Below the pieces are notes generated by a model. It had not been told where the DNA came from, searched no databases, and worked only from the letters and a program-made list of their open reading frames with translations. Positions 43,173 through 50,753 of a DNA stretch of 64,000 nt are shown here, one piece after another. This DNA comes from an endosymbiont of unidentified scaly snail isolate Monju (lineage in GTDB: Bacteria; Pseudomonadota; Gammaproteobacteria; Chromatiales; Chromatiaceae): the NCBI RefSeq assembly GCF_000801295.1, contig NZ_AP012978.1, forward strand, positions 1,922,001 to 1,986,000, written 5' to 3'. The translations under genes and the position numbers were made by a program. How positions within the stretch are numbered: the first letter of the stretch is position 1; every line of letters begins with the position of its first letter.

Positions 43173-43368
43173 GGGCGCGCGATCTTAGCACAGCCCCCAG
43201 GATGGGCAGTTCGCCAGGGGCGGGCTCCTTGCCCCATTCCCATCGGCCACAGGGATTCATCACCCCCCCAAGGCAACGCAATCGGCGTGGAGTTAACCCC
43301 CTGGCCCCTGGCGCGACATCCGAGCTGGTTGCGTCCTGACCGGGTGGCGTTATACTCGTGCGGCCCAT

Positions 43369-43456
43369 GCCGGGGTGGTGAAACTGGTAGACACAGGGGA
43401 TTCAAAATCCCCCGCCCTCACAGGCTTGCGGGTTCGAGTCCCGCCCCCGGTACCAC
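43369..43456 (+). tRNA. tRNA-Leu (anticodon CAA)
   Basis: An 88-base tRNA with acceptor GCCGGGG, long variable arm (CCCTCACAGGCTTGCGGG) and anticodon loop TTCAAAA, and encoded CCA. The promoter TTGCGT-16-TATACT (43329-43356) lies just upstream. Its last 20 bases are repeated at 48430-48449, so it is the integration site of a genomic island. Confidence 0.97.
43437..43456 (+). other. attL: island attachment core at the tRNA-Leu 3' end
   Basis: The 20 bases GAGTCCCGCCCCCGGTACCA form the T-arm and acceptor end of tRNA-Leu and recur exactly at 48430-48449. Flanks differ on both sides of the two copies. Confidence 0.88.
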
Positions 43457-43555
43457 AAGCAATCCAGCCAGTTACGCCATACCCGTAACTGGCTGTTTTT
43501 TTTGAATTTTTGTTTTTGCTTATCCGCGCACATTCGCTATTATCCGCCCATATCT

Positions 43556-43594
43556 GTCACAAATTGTCGTCACAAATTGTCATAAATTTGTCAC
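43556..43594. repeat. Tandem 13-bp iterons before the integrase
   Basis: GTCACAAATTGTC occurs twice head to tail (43556-43568, 43569-43581), followed by an inverted partial copy (ATAAATTTGTCAC, 43582-43594). A looser pair, TATCCGC at 43521 and 43541, lies just before. They are AT-rich and placed 15-55 bases before the integrase start, which suits arm-type integrase or regulator binding sites. Confidence 0.7.
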
Positions 43595-43608
43595 GCGGAG
43601 CGGTGGAG

Positions 43609-43866
43609 ATGGCCACGATCTGGAAGCGGAAAACAGGCCAGAAAACGGGCTGGACAGCCCGTGTTCGGCGAGCTGGTCACAGCGTCTCGAAAACCTTCCG
43701 AACCCGGCGCGAAGCCGAGGCCTGGGCGGCCAACATCGAGCGCGACATCGAGACGCGCCGCGCCGGTATCGCACACACAGTGCGCCAACCTTTCGCCGAC
43801 GCGGTCCATCGCTATCGCAGCGAGGTATCCGAGCCCCCCCACCTTCTCGCCGCTGGCACTTGCTAA
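43609..43866 (+). pseudogene. Tyrosine integrase, N-terminal fragment
   Basis: Only about 75-85 residues remain: the arm-binding domain with MATIWKRKTGQKTGWTARVRRAGH, then FRTRREAEAWAANIERDIETR read in pieces, and the start of the core-binding domain (FADAVHRYRSEVSE). It then runs into sequence next to the IS5-like element; the catalytic RHRHY part is absent. It lies 152 bases after tRNA-Leu, as expected for a tRNA-targeted integrase. Confidence 0.8.
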
Positions 43867-45170
43867 CAGGCTGTTGAAAAACTCCCGGATTTCCGCAAGA
43901 TCACCCCAGACCCCGATGCGTAAGTTGGATTGACGATGCGAGGCCCCGACATACAGCAAGAGACGCTGTTCAGCACGGTAAGCCCGGAACAGCGGGTCCC
44001 GAAGGACCATCCGCTGCGCCCCATCCGACGGATGGTCGATGAAGCCCTCAAGGCGCTGGACGGAGAATTCAATGCCCTGTACGCCGACAGGGGGCGGGAC
44101 TCGATCCCGCCTTCGATGCTGCTGCGGGCGCAGCTGCTGATGGCGCTCTATACCATCCGCAGCGAACGGCAGCTGGTCGAGCAGATCGACTACAACCTGC
44201 TGTTCCGCTGGTTCGTGGGTTTCTCCATGGACGACGAGGTTTGGCACCACTCGATCTTCACCAAGAACCGGGATCGGTTGCTCGAAGGCGAGGTAGTGCA
44301 CAAGTTCTTTGCCCAGGTGCTGGAACAGGCCCGTGCCGCCGATCTGCTCTCGAAGGAACACTTCAGCGTGGACGGCACGCTGATCGAGGCCCTGGCTTCG
44401 CTCAAGAGCTATCGTCCGAAGGACGAAGACGCCCCCCCACCCAGGGCGGCGGGCGCAATCCCACAGTGGACTTCCGTGGCGAGAAGCGCCATCGGGAAAC
44501 ACATGAATCCAAGACCGCCCCGGATGCCCTGTTGTTCAGGAAGAGCAAAGGCACCACCGCCAAGCTAAGCTACATGAGGCACCTGCTGATGGAGAACCGC
44601 CATGGGCTGGTGGTTGATGCCCAGGTGACCCAGGCGACCGGCACAGCTGAACGGGAGGCCGCCATCGCCATGGTCGAAGCGCTCGCCGGCACGCACTGGG
44701 CGACGGGGCCGGCGCGGACAAGAACTACGACACGAAGGGCTTCGTGGAGGCGATGCGCTGTACCAACGCTACCCCTCACGTCGCCCAGAACGACACCAAC
44801 CGCTCATCGGCCATCGATGGACGCACCACCCGCCACGCCGGTTACCGAACCAGCCAAACTACCGCCAAGCGGATCGAAGAATGCTTCGGCTGGCTCAAGA
44901 CCATCGGCGGGTTGCGCAAGAGCCGGTTTGTGGGACGTGAAAAGCTGGACTTCCACTTTGTGCTGGGAGCAGCCGCCTACAACCTGGTTCGGATGCGCAA
45001 TCTGGGGGTGGCGGCATGTTGATGGCCGCGATCCGAGGGGTTGGTGTGCCTGGAAACGGACAAATCGGACGAAATTGGCCAATTTCTTGCCAGAGGGCGG
45101 GAATCGCCGTGCTTCGTCCGCTGCTCACCACCAGGAAGGCTGCATCAGTCGGGTTGTTTTCAACGGCCTG
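43867..45170 (+). mobile_element. IS5-like insertion sequence, full length
   Basis: A 1304-bp element with inverted ends (CAGGCTGTTGAAAA on the left, the complement of CAGGCCGTTGAAAA on the right) and flanked by CTAA and CTAG, the YTAR-type target of IS5 elements. It interrupts the integrase. A 215-bp copy of its right end lies at 48072-48286 in the opposite orientation. Confidence 0.85.
43936..45022 (+). pseudogene. IS5-like transposase, two frame breaks
   Basis: A DDE transposase of about 362 residues once two breaks are mended. It starts MRGPDIQQETLFSTVSPEQ, keeps the first Asp in HFSVDGTLIEA, and the last third has LGAAAYNLVRMRNLGVAAC. The breaks are at the seven-C run 44432-44438 and the GGGG at 44705-44708; one added base at each joins the frames (DAPPTQGGGRNPTVDFRG and TGAGADKNYDTKGF). 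Both lie in homopolymers, so error is possible. Confidence 0.85.
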
Positions 45171-45310
45171 CTAGCAAATATCCCGCTGCGGAAGGTCGCG
45201 AACGTCTGGGATCCATCGATATCGAGTGGCGGTTTTGAAAGACGGGCCTGGCATGGTTTGAGGAAGGTTTCATTGTTGCAGGGCAGATTACTCAGAGGAG
45301 ACTGAAAACG

Positions 45311-46657
45311 ATGATTACAGCACTGGTATTGATCAAAGCGGAAAAGGGTGAGGCATCGAATCTCGCGGCCAGGCTTGGAGAGATCGATGAAGTGGTCGAG
45401 GTTCTTTCAGTTGCGGGCGACTACGATCTGACTGCCAAGTTGCAGGTGAAGGAATATGAGCACCTCTCCGATATCGTGTCGGATGAGATCCAGCAACTCG
45501 ATGGCATCGCATCCACCAGGACCATGATGGCCTTCAAGACCTACAAATTCAGCGGGCTGGAAGAAAGCGCGCCTGTCACTTCCGAGGCAGCACCTGCCCA
45601 AAGCGGTCCGGCCGCGGTATTGGAGGACGGGAAGAAGATCATCAAGCCCGTTTTGTCCCAGTTGACGCAGGGGTTCGACCTGGAAAAGAACGAAATCCAT
45701 TCCCTGATCGATGCCATTGGAAAAGATCAACTCTCCGATGTTCAGATCGCAGGCTTTCTGGTCTCGCTGCTTTCCAAGGGCCCCAGTATCAAGGAGGTGG
45801 CCCATATTGCGCAGGCCATGCGTAACAACTGCATCCCGTTCCAGCCCCAAGTGGAAGGAGAAATCACCGACACCTGCGGCACCGGGGGCGGGTTGACCAC
45901 CTTCAACATCAGCACGGCGAACTCGATACTCGCGGCCTCGGCAGGCATCCCTGTCGCCAAGCATGGCAGTCGTTCGATTGCTTCATCGTCTGGGAGCGCA
46001 GACGTGCTGGAAGCGCTGGGTGTAAAGATCGACCTGTCCATCCCACAGGCGACGCGTCTGATTGAGGAAATCGGCATCAGTTTTCTTTATGCGCCCAATT
46101 TCCACCCGATCATGTTGAAGGTGTTCGGGCCCGAGAACCAACTGGGGATCAAGACCATCTTCTTCACCATCATCGGCCCCCTGATCAATCCGGCAGGCGC
46201 TCGCAACCATACGATGGGCGTATACAAGCCCGAGCTCGTACACATGGTGGCTGAAGTTGTGAAGGAGATGGACTTCAATCACGTCATCGTGGCGCATGGC
46301 CTCGACGGCCTCGACGAGATCTCCCTGCTGGGCAAGACCGCCATCGCCGAAGCCAAGGACGGCACCATCAAACGCTATGAAATCAGCCCGGAAGATTTTG
46401 GCATGAAGCGCTGCTCCATCGAGGACATTGCAGGCGGATCACCGGAGTTCAATGCGCAGGTCATCAGGGATATCTTCTCCGGCGCCGACAAGGGACCGCG
46501 AAGGGATGCGGTGGTCCTCAACAATGCAGCGACTTTGTATGTGAGTGGCCTGGTTCCCAGTATTCAGGAGGGTATCGAGATGGCCAACTCGCTGCTGGAT
46601 TCCGGTGCCGCCATGAACAAGCTCGAAGAGCTTATCCGGGTATCCAATCAGGTGTGA
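45311..46657 (+). CDS. trpD: Lrp/AsnC ligand-binding (RAM) domain fused to anthranilate phosphoribosyltransferase
   Basis: A 448-residue fusion. Residues 1-80 match a stand-alone RAM domain (MITALVLIKAEKGEASNL; EVLSVAGDYDLTAKLQVKE), the amino-acid effector module of Lrp regulators. An Ala/Pro/Ser linker (81-105) leads to a full TrpD: CGTGGGLTTFNISTA (189-203), VAKHGSR (215-221), SSSGSADVLEALG and HGLDGLDEIS (329-338). GTGGG replaces the common GTGGDG, as in some archaeal-type TrpDs. TrpD joins anthranilate to PRPP. The frame is unbroken with an AGAGGAG site upstream. Allosteric control by an amino acid is inference. Confidence 0.9.
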   Translation: MITALVLIKAEKGEASNLAARLGEIDEVVEVLSVAGDYDLTAKLQVKEYEHLSDIVSDEIQQLDGIASTRTMMAFKTYKFSGLEESAPVTSEAAPAQSGPAAVLEDGKKIIKPVLSQLTQGFDLEKNEIHSLIDAIGKDQLSDVQIAGFLVSLLSKGPSIKEVAHIAQAMRNNCIPFQPQVEGEITDTCGTGGGLTTFNISTANSILAASAGIPVAKHGSRSIASSSGSADVLEALGVKIDLSIPQATRLIEEIGISFLYAPNFHPIMLKVFGPENQLGIKTIFFTIIGPLINPAGARNHTMGVYKPELVHMVAEVVKEMDFNHVIVAHGLDGLDEISLLGKTAIAEAKDGTIKRYEISPEDFGMKRCSIEDIAGGSPEFNAQVIRDIFSGADKGPRRDAVVLNNAATLYVSGLVPSIQEGIEMANSLLDSGAAMNKLEELIRVSNQV

Positions 46658-46662
46658 CGAAC

Positions 46663-47379
46663 ATGCCCATCAATAAAAGACCGTCTTTGGCGGCCTCCAT
46701 CAGGGAACGTCAGAAGCAGGGTCACTTCCCTGTCATCTCCGAGTTGAAACCGAGATCGCCGAAAGAAGGCGATCTGTTTCGGGGTCGGGACCCCCTGACC
46801 CTGGTTTCGGAGATGGGCACCTGCCCGGTCGCCGGCATCAGTGTGGTTACGGAACCGCTGCATTTCGGGGGGAGTATGGATCTGTTGCGGGATGTGATAT
46901 CTCATGTTTCGCTGCCGGTTCTGCACAAGGATTTTGTCACCGATCCAGAGCAGGTGAAGGAATCAGCGAAGGCTGGAGCTTCAGCCATACTGATCATCAC
47001 CTCCATGTTGGATGATGCACAGATCGAGCTCCTCGTCGCAGCGTCAAGAAGGCATGGCATAGAGTCCCTGGTTGAGGTGCATACGGCTTCCGAAATGGAG
47101 CGGGTGGCGGATCTCGATTACGACCTGCTCGGGATCAACAACCGGGATATCACGGTGCTTGAAGTGGACGACATGGATGTCAGTTGGACCGAAACCCTGG
47201 CGCCGCTGAAAGGAGTAGACAGGCCGCTGATCAGCGAGAGCTCCATTTCCGGCCCTGAAGATATCGTCCGTGCCGGCAGGGCGGGGGCGGACGCCGCGCT
47301 GGTTGGCACTGCCGTGTTGCGGGCACCGGATATTTCGCAGTTCCTGAATCAGCTCATCGGGGTCGGCTGGCCGGTATGA
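46663..47379 (+). CDS. trpC: Indole-3-glycerol phosphate synthase
   Basis: A 238-residue (beta/alpha)8-barrel enzyme for the ring closure to indole glycerol phosphate. Conserved motifs: ISELKPRSPKEGD (Glu27, Lys29), VLHKDFVTD with the catalytic Lys89, LLGINNRDI, and ISESSISGPEDI. A GTG at 46654 overlapping the trpD stop is an alternative start. It overlaps trpF by 4 bases. It is shorter and more divergent than chromosomal gammaproteobacterial TrpC. Confidence 0.93.
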   Translation: MPINKRPSLAASIRERQKQGHFPVISELKPRSPKEGDLFRGRDPLTLVSEMGTCPVAGISVVTEPLHFGGSMDLLRDVISHVSLPVLHKDFVTDPEQVKESAKAGASAILIITSMLDDAQIELLVAASRRHGIESLVEVHTASEMERVADLDYDLLGINNRDITVLEVDDMDVSWTETLAPLKGVDRPLISESSISGPEDIVRAGRAGADAALVGTAVLRAPDISQFLNQLIGVGWPV

Positions 47380-48071
47380 CTCGAATCAAGATCTGCGGCC
47401 TGACAAACGAACAGGACGTTCACCTGTGCGCCTCGGCTGGTGCAGATGCACTCGGTTTCGTGGTGGAGTACCCGGTGGAGGTTCCTTGGAATCTGAATCG
47501 TGAAACCGCCCGCAGACTCATGGCCCGGATGCCGCCCTTTGTCACCAGTGTTGCGGTGGTGGGTGACGACCCAGACCAGGTTCTCGGCATTGCCGAAACA
47601 GTGAAACCGAACGTGGTGCAACTGCATGGTCGGGAGCCGTTTGCGGTCACCGCAGAGATGATCCGGGGGCTGAAATCACTCGGGATCGGGGTTATAAAGG
47701 CCCTGCGCTTTTCAACCGACAGCGGTGAGCTCGATTACGACCTGGCCGATCCGATCGAGGCCTGTCACGCCCTTGCCGAAGCGGGTGCCGACGCCATCGT
47801 CGCCGATTCCTTCACCAGGTCCCGGCCGGCGGGAACAGGCAAGCGCTTCGACTGGAAGGTGGCGCGTTTTCTTGGCGACAAGACACCGATTCCCCTGATC
47901 CTCGCTGGCGGCCTGACCGCAGAGAACGTGGGCAGGGCCATTGTTGAGGTGAACCCCTACGGGGTGGACGTCATATCGGGCGTCGAAGGCAGGGATCATA
48001 AAAAGGACCCTGACAAGGTGAGGGCATTTGTCCAGGCGGTAAAATCAACGCGTTGTCGAGCCGGTGATTAA
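47376..48071 (+). CDS. trpF: Phosphoribosylanthranilate isomerase
   Basis: A 231-residue barrel enzyme for the step between TrpD and TrpC. The catalytic Cys7 is in RIKICGLTNE; VVQLHGREP and the Asp in IVADSFTRSRPAGTGKRFDW are present, as is LILAGGLTAENV. The block VEYPVEVPWNLNRETARRLM is unlike the usual FxxxSPRxV region of bacterial TrpF. The TAA stop abuts the first base of an IS5 fragment, which may have trimmed the C-terminus. Confidence 0.93.
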   Translation: MTRIKICGLTNEQDVHLCASAGADALGFVVEYPVEVPWNLNRETARRLMARMPPFVTSVAVVGDDPDQVLGIAETVKPNVVQLHGREPFAVTAEMIRGLKSLGIGVIKALRFSTDSGELDYDLADPIEACHALAEAGADAIVADSFTRSRPAGTGKRFDWKVARFLGDKTPIPLILAGGLTAENVGRAIVEVNPYGVDVISGVEGRDHKKDPDKVRAFVQAVKSTRCRAGD

Positions 48072-48286
48072 CAGGCCGTTGAAAACAACCCGACTGATGC
48101 AGCCTTCCTGGCGGTGAGCAGCGGATGAAGCACGGCGATTCCCGCCCTCTGGCAAGAAATTGGCCAATTTCGTCCGATTTGTCCGTTTCCAGGCACACCA
48201 ACCCCTCGGATCGCGGCCATCAACATGCCGCCACCCCCAGATTGCGCATCCGAACCAGGTTGTAGGCGGCTGCTCCCAGCACAAAG
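48072..48286 (-). mobile_element. Truncated, inverted copy of the IS5-like element (right end)
   Basis: These 215 bases are the complement of the last 215 bases of the element at 43867-45170, with only about two differences seen by eye. TTAA, an acceptable YTAR target, precedes it. The copy ends abruptly at CAGCACAAAG, followed by about 140 bases of unrecognised sequence up to attR. Confidence 0.88.
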
Positions 48287-48429
48287 AGGCTGAAGCTGGG
48301 GCGAGAACACCACATCGGATTGAGCAAATGCCGATTCGTCAAAGGCAGCAAGAAGCTGAAATAGAGCTCTGACAGTGTCGCAGGCGTGTCACAAGATATG
48401 ATTAAGTGATTGATTTGACGTGAATAGAT

Positions 48430-48449
48430 GAGTCCCGCCCCCGGTACCA
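48430..48449 (+). other. attR: second copy of the tRNA-Leu 3' end
   Basis: An exact 20-base copy of the tRNA-Leu 3' end including CCA, without the rest of a tRNA. It marks the right end of the island. Confidence 0.88.
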
Positions 48450-48478
48450 ATCTCTGGCCGCATCCAGGCCGCCTCGCA

Positions 48479-48509
48479 AGAAAACGCCCGGGATTCCCGG
48501 GCGTTTTCT
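48479..48509. terminator. Bidirectional terminator after tolC / tRNA-Leu
   Basis: A perfect 14-bp inverted repeat (AGAAAACGCCCGGG and complement) with an ATT loop. On the minus strand it ends tolC; before island integration it would also have ended the tRNA-Leu transcript. Confidence 0.92.
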
Positions 48510-48527
48510 GAGTGGGCTTGCCGAGCC

Positions 48528-50315
48528 TCAACGATTGCTCTCGGATACGATCATCCAGCGACCGTTCTCGCGACGCAGGCGCAACACCTTGTTACTGACG
48601 TCACGGTAGTTGTGCGCCCGGTAACGCTGGCGGAACCGTGCAGTCGCATTGTCTCCCTGCACGCTCACCTCGATATCGTCAATATCCACCTGGATATTGT
48701 GAGCACGGCCAATGACGCGACGCCGGGCCGTGCGCCAGGCCGAACGACTGCCCTTCGCTGGCTTGAAGGCACTGGAATAGAAACTGAAATAGTTGTCCAC
48801 GTTACCCGAGGCCCAGGCTGCGGCCCAGTCCTGGATCCTGTTGACCACTTCTCCCCCCGGCGTGATGTCCGCCTTGACTGTCGTCGGTGCTGCCGATTCC
48901 GTGACCTGTTGACGGGGGATAGCCGGCCCAAAATCCTCCACCTTGAGATCGTAGGCAGCGTATTGTCCGAAGGACTTCAGCTCTTCATCGCCCCGACCCG
49001 GTCCCTGGGGCATCTCGGCACCCAGCACACCGAGCAACCGTCCCATGCCGGCCAGAATACGGTACTGGGCATAGAGGTTGTCATATCGGGTCTCGACCAG
49101 GGACCGCTTGGCCTCGAACAGCTCGTTCTCGATGTTGAGCAGATCGACCAGGGTTCGCTTGCCGATATTGAATTGCTTCTCGTAGGCCTTGCGGGTGGCA
49201 GTGGTCGCCCGGACATAATCGATCAACGAACCCAGTTGCGAACGAGTCGCCTGGTAGGCTGACCAGGCCAGGCGCAGGCTCTCGACGACTTCCCGGTAGG
49301 TCTGGTTGCGCACTTCCTTGGCTTCGTTGAGCAGGTGTGCCGTCTGTGCCTTGCGGGCCCTGTCACGCCCCCCGGAGTAGAGGTTGTAGCGCAACCGGAT
49401 CAGGGCACTCAGGTCCTTGTTGGTCCCCTTCAATCCGTTCTGGTCGTCACCCCAGTTGCTACCCAGTTCCAGATCGAGCTTCGGGTAGTCGTTCTGGCGG
49501 GCAGCCTCATGCTGGGCCAGCGCGGCCTTCACGTCGGCCTTGGCCGATCGGAGCGTGGGGTGTTCGGCCAGCGCAATCTCCATGGCCTCGGCCAACGACA
49601 TCGGCAGATTGCGCTCCAGACCCGAAACCGGCTGCAATTCGGCGGGGGCTGGCATGCCGACAGTACGCAGATAACGGGTCTCGACGTCTTTCAGGTTGAC
49701 CAGGTCGGAGAGACGACTGGCCTCGGCATTGGAGCGCCGGCCACTCACCTGGTCGAGGTCGACCGAGCTGCCGATACCGGCCTTGTAACGTAGGCGAATC
49801 TGGCTCTCGGTGCGCCGATGCGCCTGCAGGTTGTCTTCCGACAGGCGCAGAAGCTCACGATGCCGCAGCACATCGAGATAGGCCTTGATGGCATCCAGCG
49901 CCACATTCTGGCTCACACCCTCGGGCCGCCGGGCTACCGACTCGTAACGGGCCTGCTGACGCGCCACCTCGCTGTCGGTGGCATAGCCATCGAACAGCAT
50001 CTGGGAAAGCCTGGCCCCCGCCTCCTTGCGGATCAGACTGCGACCGTCCTTGTAACCGGCATTACGGGTGGCCGCGTTATCGTTCCACTCCCACCCCCCG
50101 GCGGCCGTGATGTCGATTCGCGGCTTGTAACCGGCCTTCGCCTGCTCTATCTGCTGCGCGCGCGCCTGCAATTCGTTGCTCTGTACGCGAACATCGGGAT
50201 GCGTTGCCAACGCCTCGCGCACCGCGTCATTCAGCGTCACCATCTCGCTACCCATGGCGGCATCCGTGCCAGCCAATCCCGCGCACAAGAACAGGACGAT
50301 TAGAACCCTACGCAT
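48528..50315 (-). CDS. TolC-family outer membrane efflux protein with C-terminal NTF2-like (Cds6-type) domain
   Basis: A 595-residue outer membrane channel for type I secretion or efflux. The start at 50315 (MRRVLIVLFLCAGLAGTDAA) gives a signal peptide; upstream codons do not. Two TolC repeats follow (LNDAVREALATHPDV; LAEAMEIALAEHPTL), with NIGKRTLVDLLNIENELFEAK typical of the secretion type. After about residue 475 comes an extra domain (INRIQDW-type: RIQDWAAAWASGNVDNYF, ending WMIVSESNR) of the SnoaL/Cds6 fold. No inner membrane partners are next to it. Confidence 0.88.
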   Translation of the reverse strand: MRRVLIVLFLCAGLAGTDAAMGSEMVTLNDAVREALATHPDVRVQSNELQARAQQIEQAKAGYKPRIDITAAGGWEWNDNAATRNAGYKDGRSLIRKEAGARLSQMLFDGYATDSEVARQQARYESVARRPEGVSQNVALDAIKAYLDVLRHRELLRLSEDNLQAHRRTESQIRLRYKAGIGSSVDLDQVSGRRSNAEASRLSDLVNLKDVETRYLRTVGMPAPAELQPVSGLERNLPMSLAEAMEIALAEHPTLRSAKADVKAALAQHEAARQNDYPKLDLELGSNWGDDQNGLKGTNKDLSALIRLRYNLYSGGRDRARKAQTAHLLNEAKEVRNQTYREVVESLRLAWSAYQATRSQLGSLIDYVRATTATRKAYEKQFNIGKRTLVDLLNIENELFEAKRSLVETRYDNLYAQYRILAGMGRLLGVLGAEMPQGPGRGDEELKSFGQYAAYDLKVEDFGPAIPRQQVTESAAPTTVKADITPGGEVVNRIQDWAAAWASGNVDNYFSFYSSAFKPAKGSRSAWRTARRRVIGRAHNIQVDIDDIEVSVQGDNATARFRQRYRAHNYRDVSNKVLRLRRENGRWMIVSESNR

Positions 50316-50753
50316 TCCTCGCCCCCCAAGGTCGTTTTGTTTTCCGACCGACTCCCGGTCGAATCCATTACCGCGATGCATCCGATGCAAATGACACACC
50401 ACCTTTGCGGACACAAGCCGCCGGGAATGCCATCACGCACCCAGATGTGTGGCCACTGCCACAAAACCGCGCCACAAGGCGTGAAGGTCGTCACAAAACG
50501 ACAGTCATACCCTTCCCAAATTATCCAGACCCGGGAAACCAAAGGCACGGCCTCGACGACAGCGAAGAGACCGGTCCACGACTACCCACCTCAGGAGCCC
50601 GCAGCAAGACGGGCGCACGCAAAAAAAAACGCCACGTCATGCAACGGGGCGTTTCCATCCTCCTCCGGGCTTGTTCTACGCAAGTCTCGAAGTTGATACG
50701 GAGTATACCCGTTCCTCATCCTCGCGCAACACAAAATGTCGCCTGCGACAGGC
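50316..50753. other. Intergenic region between tolC and msrQ
   Basis: This 438-base stretch holds the tolC upstream region and the msrQ terminator (50621-50654). A plus-strand frame of 119 codons (50337-50696) lacks a ribosome site and reads as low-complexity sequence, so I see no gene here. Confidence 0.5.
50621..50654 (-). terminator. Terminator downstream of msrQ
   Basis: On the minus strand, a 7-bp stem (AAACGCC / GGCGTTT) with a 14-base loop runs into nine T in total. It is about 100 bases after the msrQ stop. Confidence 0.75.

Follow-up and report, generated by a model that had tools for sequence, protein, structure and literature searches.

A RAM domain joined in one frame to a divergent TrpD in a gammaproteobacterial endosymbiont, and its relatives among bacteria and archaea

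Feedback control of tryptophan synthesis is exerted at TrpE, on transcription or by attenuation. Enterobacteria carry TrpG-TrpD and TrpC-TrpF fusions, which also lie within the trp pathway but unite two catalytic parts, whereas the protein described here joins a sensor-type domain to an enzyme. The hallmarks of TrpD, as given in the available portions of two sources, are the GTGGD signature and the conserved KHGN motif (PMC5537072), together with an arginine on helix 8, Arg193 in M. tuberculosis and Arg164 in S. solfataricus, that holds the carboxylate of anthranilate (PMC9835598). For the RAM domain, a 2010 review describes amino acids bound at dimer interfaces in regulators and sees no clear role for RAM proteins that stand alone (PMC2995911). 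Finally, the trp operon of Chlamydia caviae, C. felis and C. pecorum lacks anthranilate synthase and starts at anthranilate, as is proposed for the module analysed below; besides its own tryptophan synthase genes it includes trpR and kynU, the latter for making anthranilate out of kynurenine. The accessible part of that account mentions no RAM domain in the operon (PMC3937554), whereas the present module has a sensor-type domain built in.

The window, i.e., the whole 64,000-nucleotide stretch of endosymbiont DNA that was analysed, carries at 45311-46657 a single ATG-started open frame of 448 aa with no internal stop, in which a RAM domain, a flexible linker and a full TrpD follow one another (Table 1). 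The earlier note had read residues 1-80 as a complete Lrp/AsnC effector-binding domain and proposed a domain search as a check. That search detects RAM there: PF01037 (AsnC_trans_reg) matches residues 6-77 at 59.3 bits against a cut-off of 25 and spans the full profile (1-73 of 73). By sequence, the closest solved RAM chain is 2djw, a 92-aa AsnC-family protein that aligns over residues 1-82. An AlphaFold2 model built from 37 sequences has a mean pLDDT of 87.6 and predicts the beta-alpha-beta-beta-alpha-beta order (DSSP) for residues 2-76, a fold that agrees with the assignment. The full PF01037 profile and the order of strands and helices are shared with Lrp/AsnC proteins and with stand-alone RAM proteins (2djw; DM1 of Pyrococcus horikoshii); unlike the RAM of Lrp/AsnC proteins, the window RAM has no DNA-binding domain and is joined to an enzyme. 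Pfam matched no HTH family in the N terminus, where the RAM match begins at residue 6. The Ala/Pro/Ser linker that had been described is also there, in an open frame without a stop, and pLDDT falls below 50 only at residues 79-99, as expected of a disordered linker.

Table 1. Features of the tRNA-Leu segment and the trpD-trpC-trpF module (window coordinates).
Feature	Position	Strand	Evidence
tRNA-Leu (CAA), island integration site	43369..43455	+	ARAGORN, Rfam RF00005
Left 20-bp direct repeat, att-like, equal to tRNA 3' end	43436..43455	+	Repeat search, 100%
Possible integrase N-terminal remnant (Arm-DNA-binding-like), tentative	43609..43866	+	PF14657, 17.7 bits, below cut-off 22.3
Broken insertion-sequence transposase, ORFs 43930-44568 and 44744-45022	43930..45022	+	DUF772, DDE_Tnp_1_6
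RAM domain, fusion residues 1-80	45311..45550	+	Pfam PF01037, AlphaFold2 model
Ala/Pro/Ser-rich linker, fusion residues 81-108	45551..45634	+	Sequence; pLDDT <50 at 79-99
TrpD part, RAM type (GTGGG, KHGS with Ser220, Lys281)	45635..46657	+	TIGR01245, motifs
trpC, short form, 241 aa, overlaps trpD by 4 bases	46654..47379	+	PF00218 from profile position 36; alignment
trpF, VPWN replacing S-x-R motif of others, overlaps trpC by 4 bases	47376..48071	+	PF00697; motif counts
Inverted 221-bp copy of insertion-sequence end 44953-45173, 98% complementary	48069..48289	-	Repeat search
Right 20-bp direct repeat, att-like	48430..48449	+	Repeat search; junction compared with G003

The remainder of the protein shares the full-length profile and the fold of TrpD, a class IV phosphoribosyltransferase. 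Pfam places Glycos_trans_3N on residues 112-174 and Glycos_transf_3 on residues 183-434, TIGR01245 (NCBIfam trpD) reaches 362.8 bits (cut-off 199), and the best Foldseek match of the modelled part among solved TrpDs is 9ucw_A, with a TM-score of 0.95 by target length. The TrpG-TrpD model NF007073 matches only the TrpD part (216.7 bits against a cut-off of 738). The earlier note knew of no described enzyme with this layout, and no description of a RAM-TrpD protein was found among the titles and opening abstract lines of open-licence papers; PMC1173090 offered nothing relevant on AsnC and TrpD, and an earlier mention elsewhere is possible.

Relatives were collected by scanning one genome per species, 84,980 species in all, with two RAM peptide patterns, which gave 57 loci. 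A RAM gene accompanies a TrpD of the window's type, hereafter RAM-type, in 25 of them. The two are fused in 13 deltaproteobacterial records, one of which (L040) is truncated at its 5' end and two of which (L031 and L032) are closely related, with 93% DNA identity over the gene; RAM precedes a separate trpD in 10 loci (Planctomycetota, Chromatiaceae and others), and the order is reversed in two, both from the archaeon Methanosuratincola. The list of RAM-TrpD fusions that the earlier note had called for thus holds at least 13 other loci, with their trp gene neighbourhoods. In L036 (3181-4452), which branches as sister to the fused clade, a stop codon parts RAM from trpD within a common frame, a layout that looks like a forerunner of the fusion. 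The other 32 loci have a RAM gene and no trp match in the locus DNA; these genes (L050-L081) come from Bifidobacterium, Actinomycetota, Armatimonadota, Chloroflexi and others. On these sequences, the RAM-type TrpD family appears small, rare and scattered over bacteria and archaea.

Two further accounts of the window protein were considered. A fusion unique to the window was rejected in view of the 13 other fused contigs and the unfused RAM and trpD pairs in other phyla. A sequencing artefact or a chance joining of RAM to TrpD is unlikely, since the same in-frame fusion occurs in those 13 contigs.

Chosen by RAM peptide patterns, the 25 loci alone cannot prove a linkage between RAM and TrpD. 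In RAM-blind searches with a TrpD query, RAM-type TrpDs were present, among the matches listed, in 3 of the 297 Desulfobacterota genomes, each time as a fusion; in 1 of 392 genomes of the planctomycete phylum (E ≤1e-105), namely the search centre, with a split RAM adjoining; and in 3 of 151 genomes of the archaeal phylum (E ≤1e-90), where RAM adjoins TrpD in two and not in the third, G819. In one TrpD-led search the RAM-type proteins were set apart by scores of 558 bits or more, the rest having 309 or less, and the next 27 matches proved ordinary when their motifs were checked. A whole-protein query among 93 relatives of the window found two. Together these searches returned nine genomes: seven shared with the RAM scan (G045 and L048 denote one locus), the window's own and one newcomer, G819.

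RAM is present with all six bacterial RAM-type TrpDs from these searches, and no RAM was found within 20 kb of the RAM-type TrpD of G819; as judged from sequence, then, RAM is not strictly required for a TrpD of this type. With seven of the nine genomes already in the RAM scan and G819 lacking RAM, the linkage rests largely on the RAM-selected set and appears to be backed mainly by the variety of arrangements rather than by unbiased counts. No further archaea like G819 or G110 emerged from their closest groups: only G819 stands out of 44 genomes in its order (740 bits; the next match has 226.5), and only G110 and G109, of 40 genomes in the class of G110, match at more than 44% identity.

In a tree of 90 TrpDs, made from 100 rows by leaving out nine duplicates of the same gene and L040 (a gap), the RAM-type proteins form one clade (26 rows, 100/100); the bootstrap of this tree was still short of convergence, and branches are long in five rows. 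The fused sequences and the window make up a single sub-clade (13 rows, 100/98), and the window is nested within it (12 rows, 99/95), nearest to L025, with 81% identity in the TrpD part. A single fused clade with the window inside it points to one fusion event and to a transfer into this gammaproteobacterium. Selection could be gauged in three pairs of fused relatives, where dN/dS is 0.017, 0 and 0.073 for RAM and 0.082, 0.028 and 0.123 for TrpD; the linker exceeds RAM in all three pairs and TrpD in two. The RAM domain is under strong purifying selection in these three measurable pairs. The figures cover relatives only, synonymous sites being saturated in pairs with the window copy, which gave no dN/dS value.

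The genomic company of the RAM-type trpD is consistent. A trpC lies downstream in 23 of the 24 loci with downstream DNA (none was found in L049, and the L028 record ends), trpF is present in all 22 loci that reach far enough, and trpB-trpA adjoin the module in 6 of 25, confirmed by Pfam for L031/L032 and L042. Neither trpE nor trpG was detected beside the module in the window or in any of the 25 loci, within 0 to 10 kb of flanking DNA per side, some locus records stopping near the operon. An all-ORF comparison at 80 bits or more, which took in the 25 loci, L135 and 18 kb from the window, revealed no extra conserved neighbour beyond small groups: an ABC-transporter-type gene in three loci, a long minus-strand ORF group in four, and the remaining non-trp groups in two loci each of the same lineage. 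No riboswitch or leader was detected in window positions 43300-48600, where only the tRNA reached the Rfam gathering score.

The usual control point, TrpE, is thus outside the module, which would place control on TrpD. We propose that RAM subjects the opening step of a tryptophan module, with anthranilate as its starting point, to control by an effector, a reading whose chances we judge about even. The two chains of a TrpD dimer would bring their RAM domains together as RAM dimers; such a dimer would bind an amino acid, tryptophan being the simplest guess and others being possible; and binding would raise or lower TrpD activity, and with it phosphoribosyl transfer, the presumed first step of the trpD-trpC-trpF module. 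We infer the ligand binding, the direction of control, the coupling of the RAM and TrpD dimers and the use of anthranilate as substrate. If RAM does control the enzyme, it would be a new control point in tryptophan synthesis and would give RAM domains a concrete role outside transcription regulators.

RAM might instead be an oligomerisation or scaffold module that senses nothing and holds together TrpD chains, or TrpD with TrpC and TrpF, as the four-base overlaps of the window genes would suit. This is unlikely in our view: the loop S-x-x-G-x-Y/F-D, which we take to be the RAM ligand loop, is for the most part conserved across the RAM alignment, and a scaffold needs more assumptions where RAM is a separate gene. 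It does draw on the tendency of RAM domains to form dimers and higher assemblies and on several Lrp-type proteins being predicted not to bind amino acids, both taken from the available part of the 2010 review (PMC2995911). Against effector control, the preferred reading, stand the many RAM genes with no trp gene nearby (32 of 57 loci) and the changes in TrpD at signature residues that hold anthranilate in known TrpDs.

Residues were counted in 27 RAM-type TrpDs, the window and G819 included, and in 64 others after nine duplicate TrpD rows had been dropped; duplicates were likewise dropped from the TrpF and TrpC counts. GTGGG replaces GTGGD in all 27 RAM-type proteins, and the aspartate is present in 63 of the 64 others, GTGGG occurring in L123. 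KHGS replaces KHGN in 27 of 27, against an asparagine in 63 of 64, with L125 as the exception that has KHGS. At the site of the carboxylate-binding arginine, lysine (Lys281 in the window) stands in all 26 readable RAM-type sequences and in none of the 64 others, 57 of which have arginine and seven of which do not. One extra residue ahead of GPL is found in 26 of 26 RAM-type TrpDs. Known TrpDs thus have GTGGD, KHGN and Arg, whereas the window protein has GTGGG, KHGS and Lys, with RAM in front. The earlier note had spoken of a full anthranilate phosphoribosyltransferase: the TIGR01245 score and the TrpD fold uphold the architecture, but with three signature residues replaced we place the protein, as RAM-type, within the TrpD fold family and do not call it a proven anthranilate phosphoribosyltransferase. 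Among the seven ordinary TrpDs without the anthranilate-binding arginine are the second TrpDs of five planctomycete holders (L121, L122, L125, L126, L127), where proline or serine replaces it, so that both TrpDs of these genomes are unusual at this site.

The partners have diverged as well. Pfam and alignment agree that the window TrpC lacks its N-terminal extension. In TrpF, VPW[NG] is present in all 23 module sequences and VPW in none of 35 others, 33 of which have an S-x-R motif; the remaining two are a gap and the HKKA of G819. Arg36 of T. maritima TrpF, in its SPR motif, is presumably a substrate-binding residue, and the VPW change is here a fact of sequence only. The checked catalytic residues are retained in TrpC and TrpF of the modules; for TrpC, the positions, which we take to be the active-site ones of S. 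solfataricus IGP synthase, are kept in 24 of 24 or 23 of 23 readable RAM-type module sequences.

Such clade-specific sites in TrpD and TrpF, the short TrpC and the trpB-trpA genes beside 6 of 25 modules are what one would expect if RAM-type TrpD, TrpC and TrpF formed a parallel pathway that ran not on TrpE-made anthranilate but on salvaged anthranilate or a related arylamine, and whose RAM reported on that branch. We regard this as possible while leaning against it. TrpC and TrpF retain the catalytic residues that were checked; the arginine site is not strict, as the seven ordinary TrpDs without Arg indicate, and binding of a carboxylate is still within reach of Lys and Ser; and the three-enzyme pattern is incomplete in G819, whose TrpF has neither VPW nor S-x-R.

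The holder genomes bear on the same question. Chorismate_bind (PF00425) has no match in G109, G110 and G819, whereas 14 of 14 controls and the nine remaining genomes of the 12 searched are positive, yet each of the three has chorismate synthase and one TrpF. The G819 contig covers 1.68 Mb of a 1.7-Mb genome, so a gap can hardly account for the missing match; after its RAM-type trpD (L135/L143, C1:885437-886450) come trpC, trpF and a trpB-type gene, and then trpA in convergent orientation. Against a parallel pathway, two of the three, G109 and G110, are draft MAGs, and a further TrpD (251.8 bits) is present in G109; moreover, G097 and G099 each have a single, RAM-fused TrpD and one PF00425 protein, as ordinary anthranilate would have it, although PF00425 also covers enzymes other than TrpE.

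In its boldest form, the parallel pathway would be a TrpE-independent second entry to indole and tryptophan, in which RAM-type TrpD and co-diverged TrpC and TrpF would use an arylamine that does not come from anthranilate synthase, with a sensor on the first enzyme; it would have spread through archaea, Desulfobacterota, Planctomycetota and Gammaproteobacteria, might be the only route in Methanosuratincola (G110) and would have G819 as a RAM-less relative. This is doubtful. The archaeal holders without a detectable TrpE-family enzyme nevertheless make the source of the substrate directly testable, and a TrpE-independent source is possible there. A second TrpD above the cut-off is found in 18 of the 25 holder genomes, in several within a trpE-G-D-C run (L112, L113, L115, L116, L118), so the RAM-TrpD module may not be the main route in them.

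The window's own genome (G000; 2.6 Mb, one contig) has an ordinary trpE-G-D-C run with another trpD at 378 kb and a second trpF elsewhere. Here the module lies between direct repeats next to tRNA-Leu: 43436-43455 and 48430-48449 are identical at 20 of 20 bases, so that the tRNA 3' end is found at both borders. In G003, of the same genus, queA and tgt adjoin an identical tRNA-Leu, and the 98 bases that join on without interruption, the 20-bp repeat among them, agree at 86% with the window's right border; the 5-kb segment has no match in that tRNA-Leu stretch. The repeats and this empty site make it most likely that tRNA-Leu gained an insert of about 5 kb in this genome. Continuity of the tRNA into the right border is seen in one of six relatives (G003); in the remaining five, queA and the tRNA are in place and the downstream sequence is different. 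In G007, of the same genus, there is an 81% match to 78 bases immediately within the left border, perhaps a native tRNA terminator or a related element. The G+C content of the operon is 57.7%, against 63.4% for the window. A search for plasmid carriage gave five plasmid records with a TrpD (E ≤1e-60); all are below 41% identity, and none looks RAM-type.

A broken transposase, a possible integrase fragment and att-like repeats, set beside the canonical trpEGDC run and the second trpF, would also fit a passenger, i.e., relic island cargo with no physiological role in this genome. We hold this to be quite improbable, as trpD, trpC and trpF are all open and in frame with tight overlaps and have retained the RAM-type motifs and the checked catalytic positions.

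Two minor observations concern the surroundings of the segment. At 48528-50414 on the minus strand, the window encodes a TolC-like outer membrane efflux protein with a C-terminal Cds6_C (NTF2-like) domain; this gene has no match in the tRNA-Leu region of G003, where a ferric-reductase-like gene is close behind. In G007 (L177, 754-1186), pieces 75-85% alike to the window insertion sequence lie between tgt and queA, and by this resemblance the insertion-sequence family appears to be active now, or to have been formerly, in the genus.
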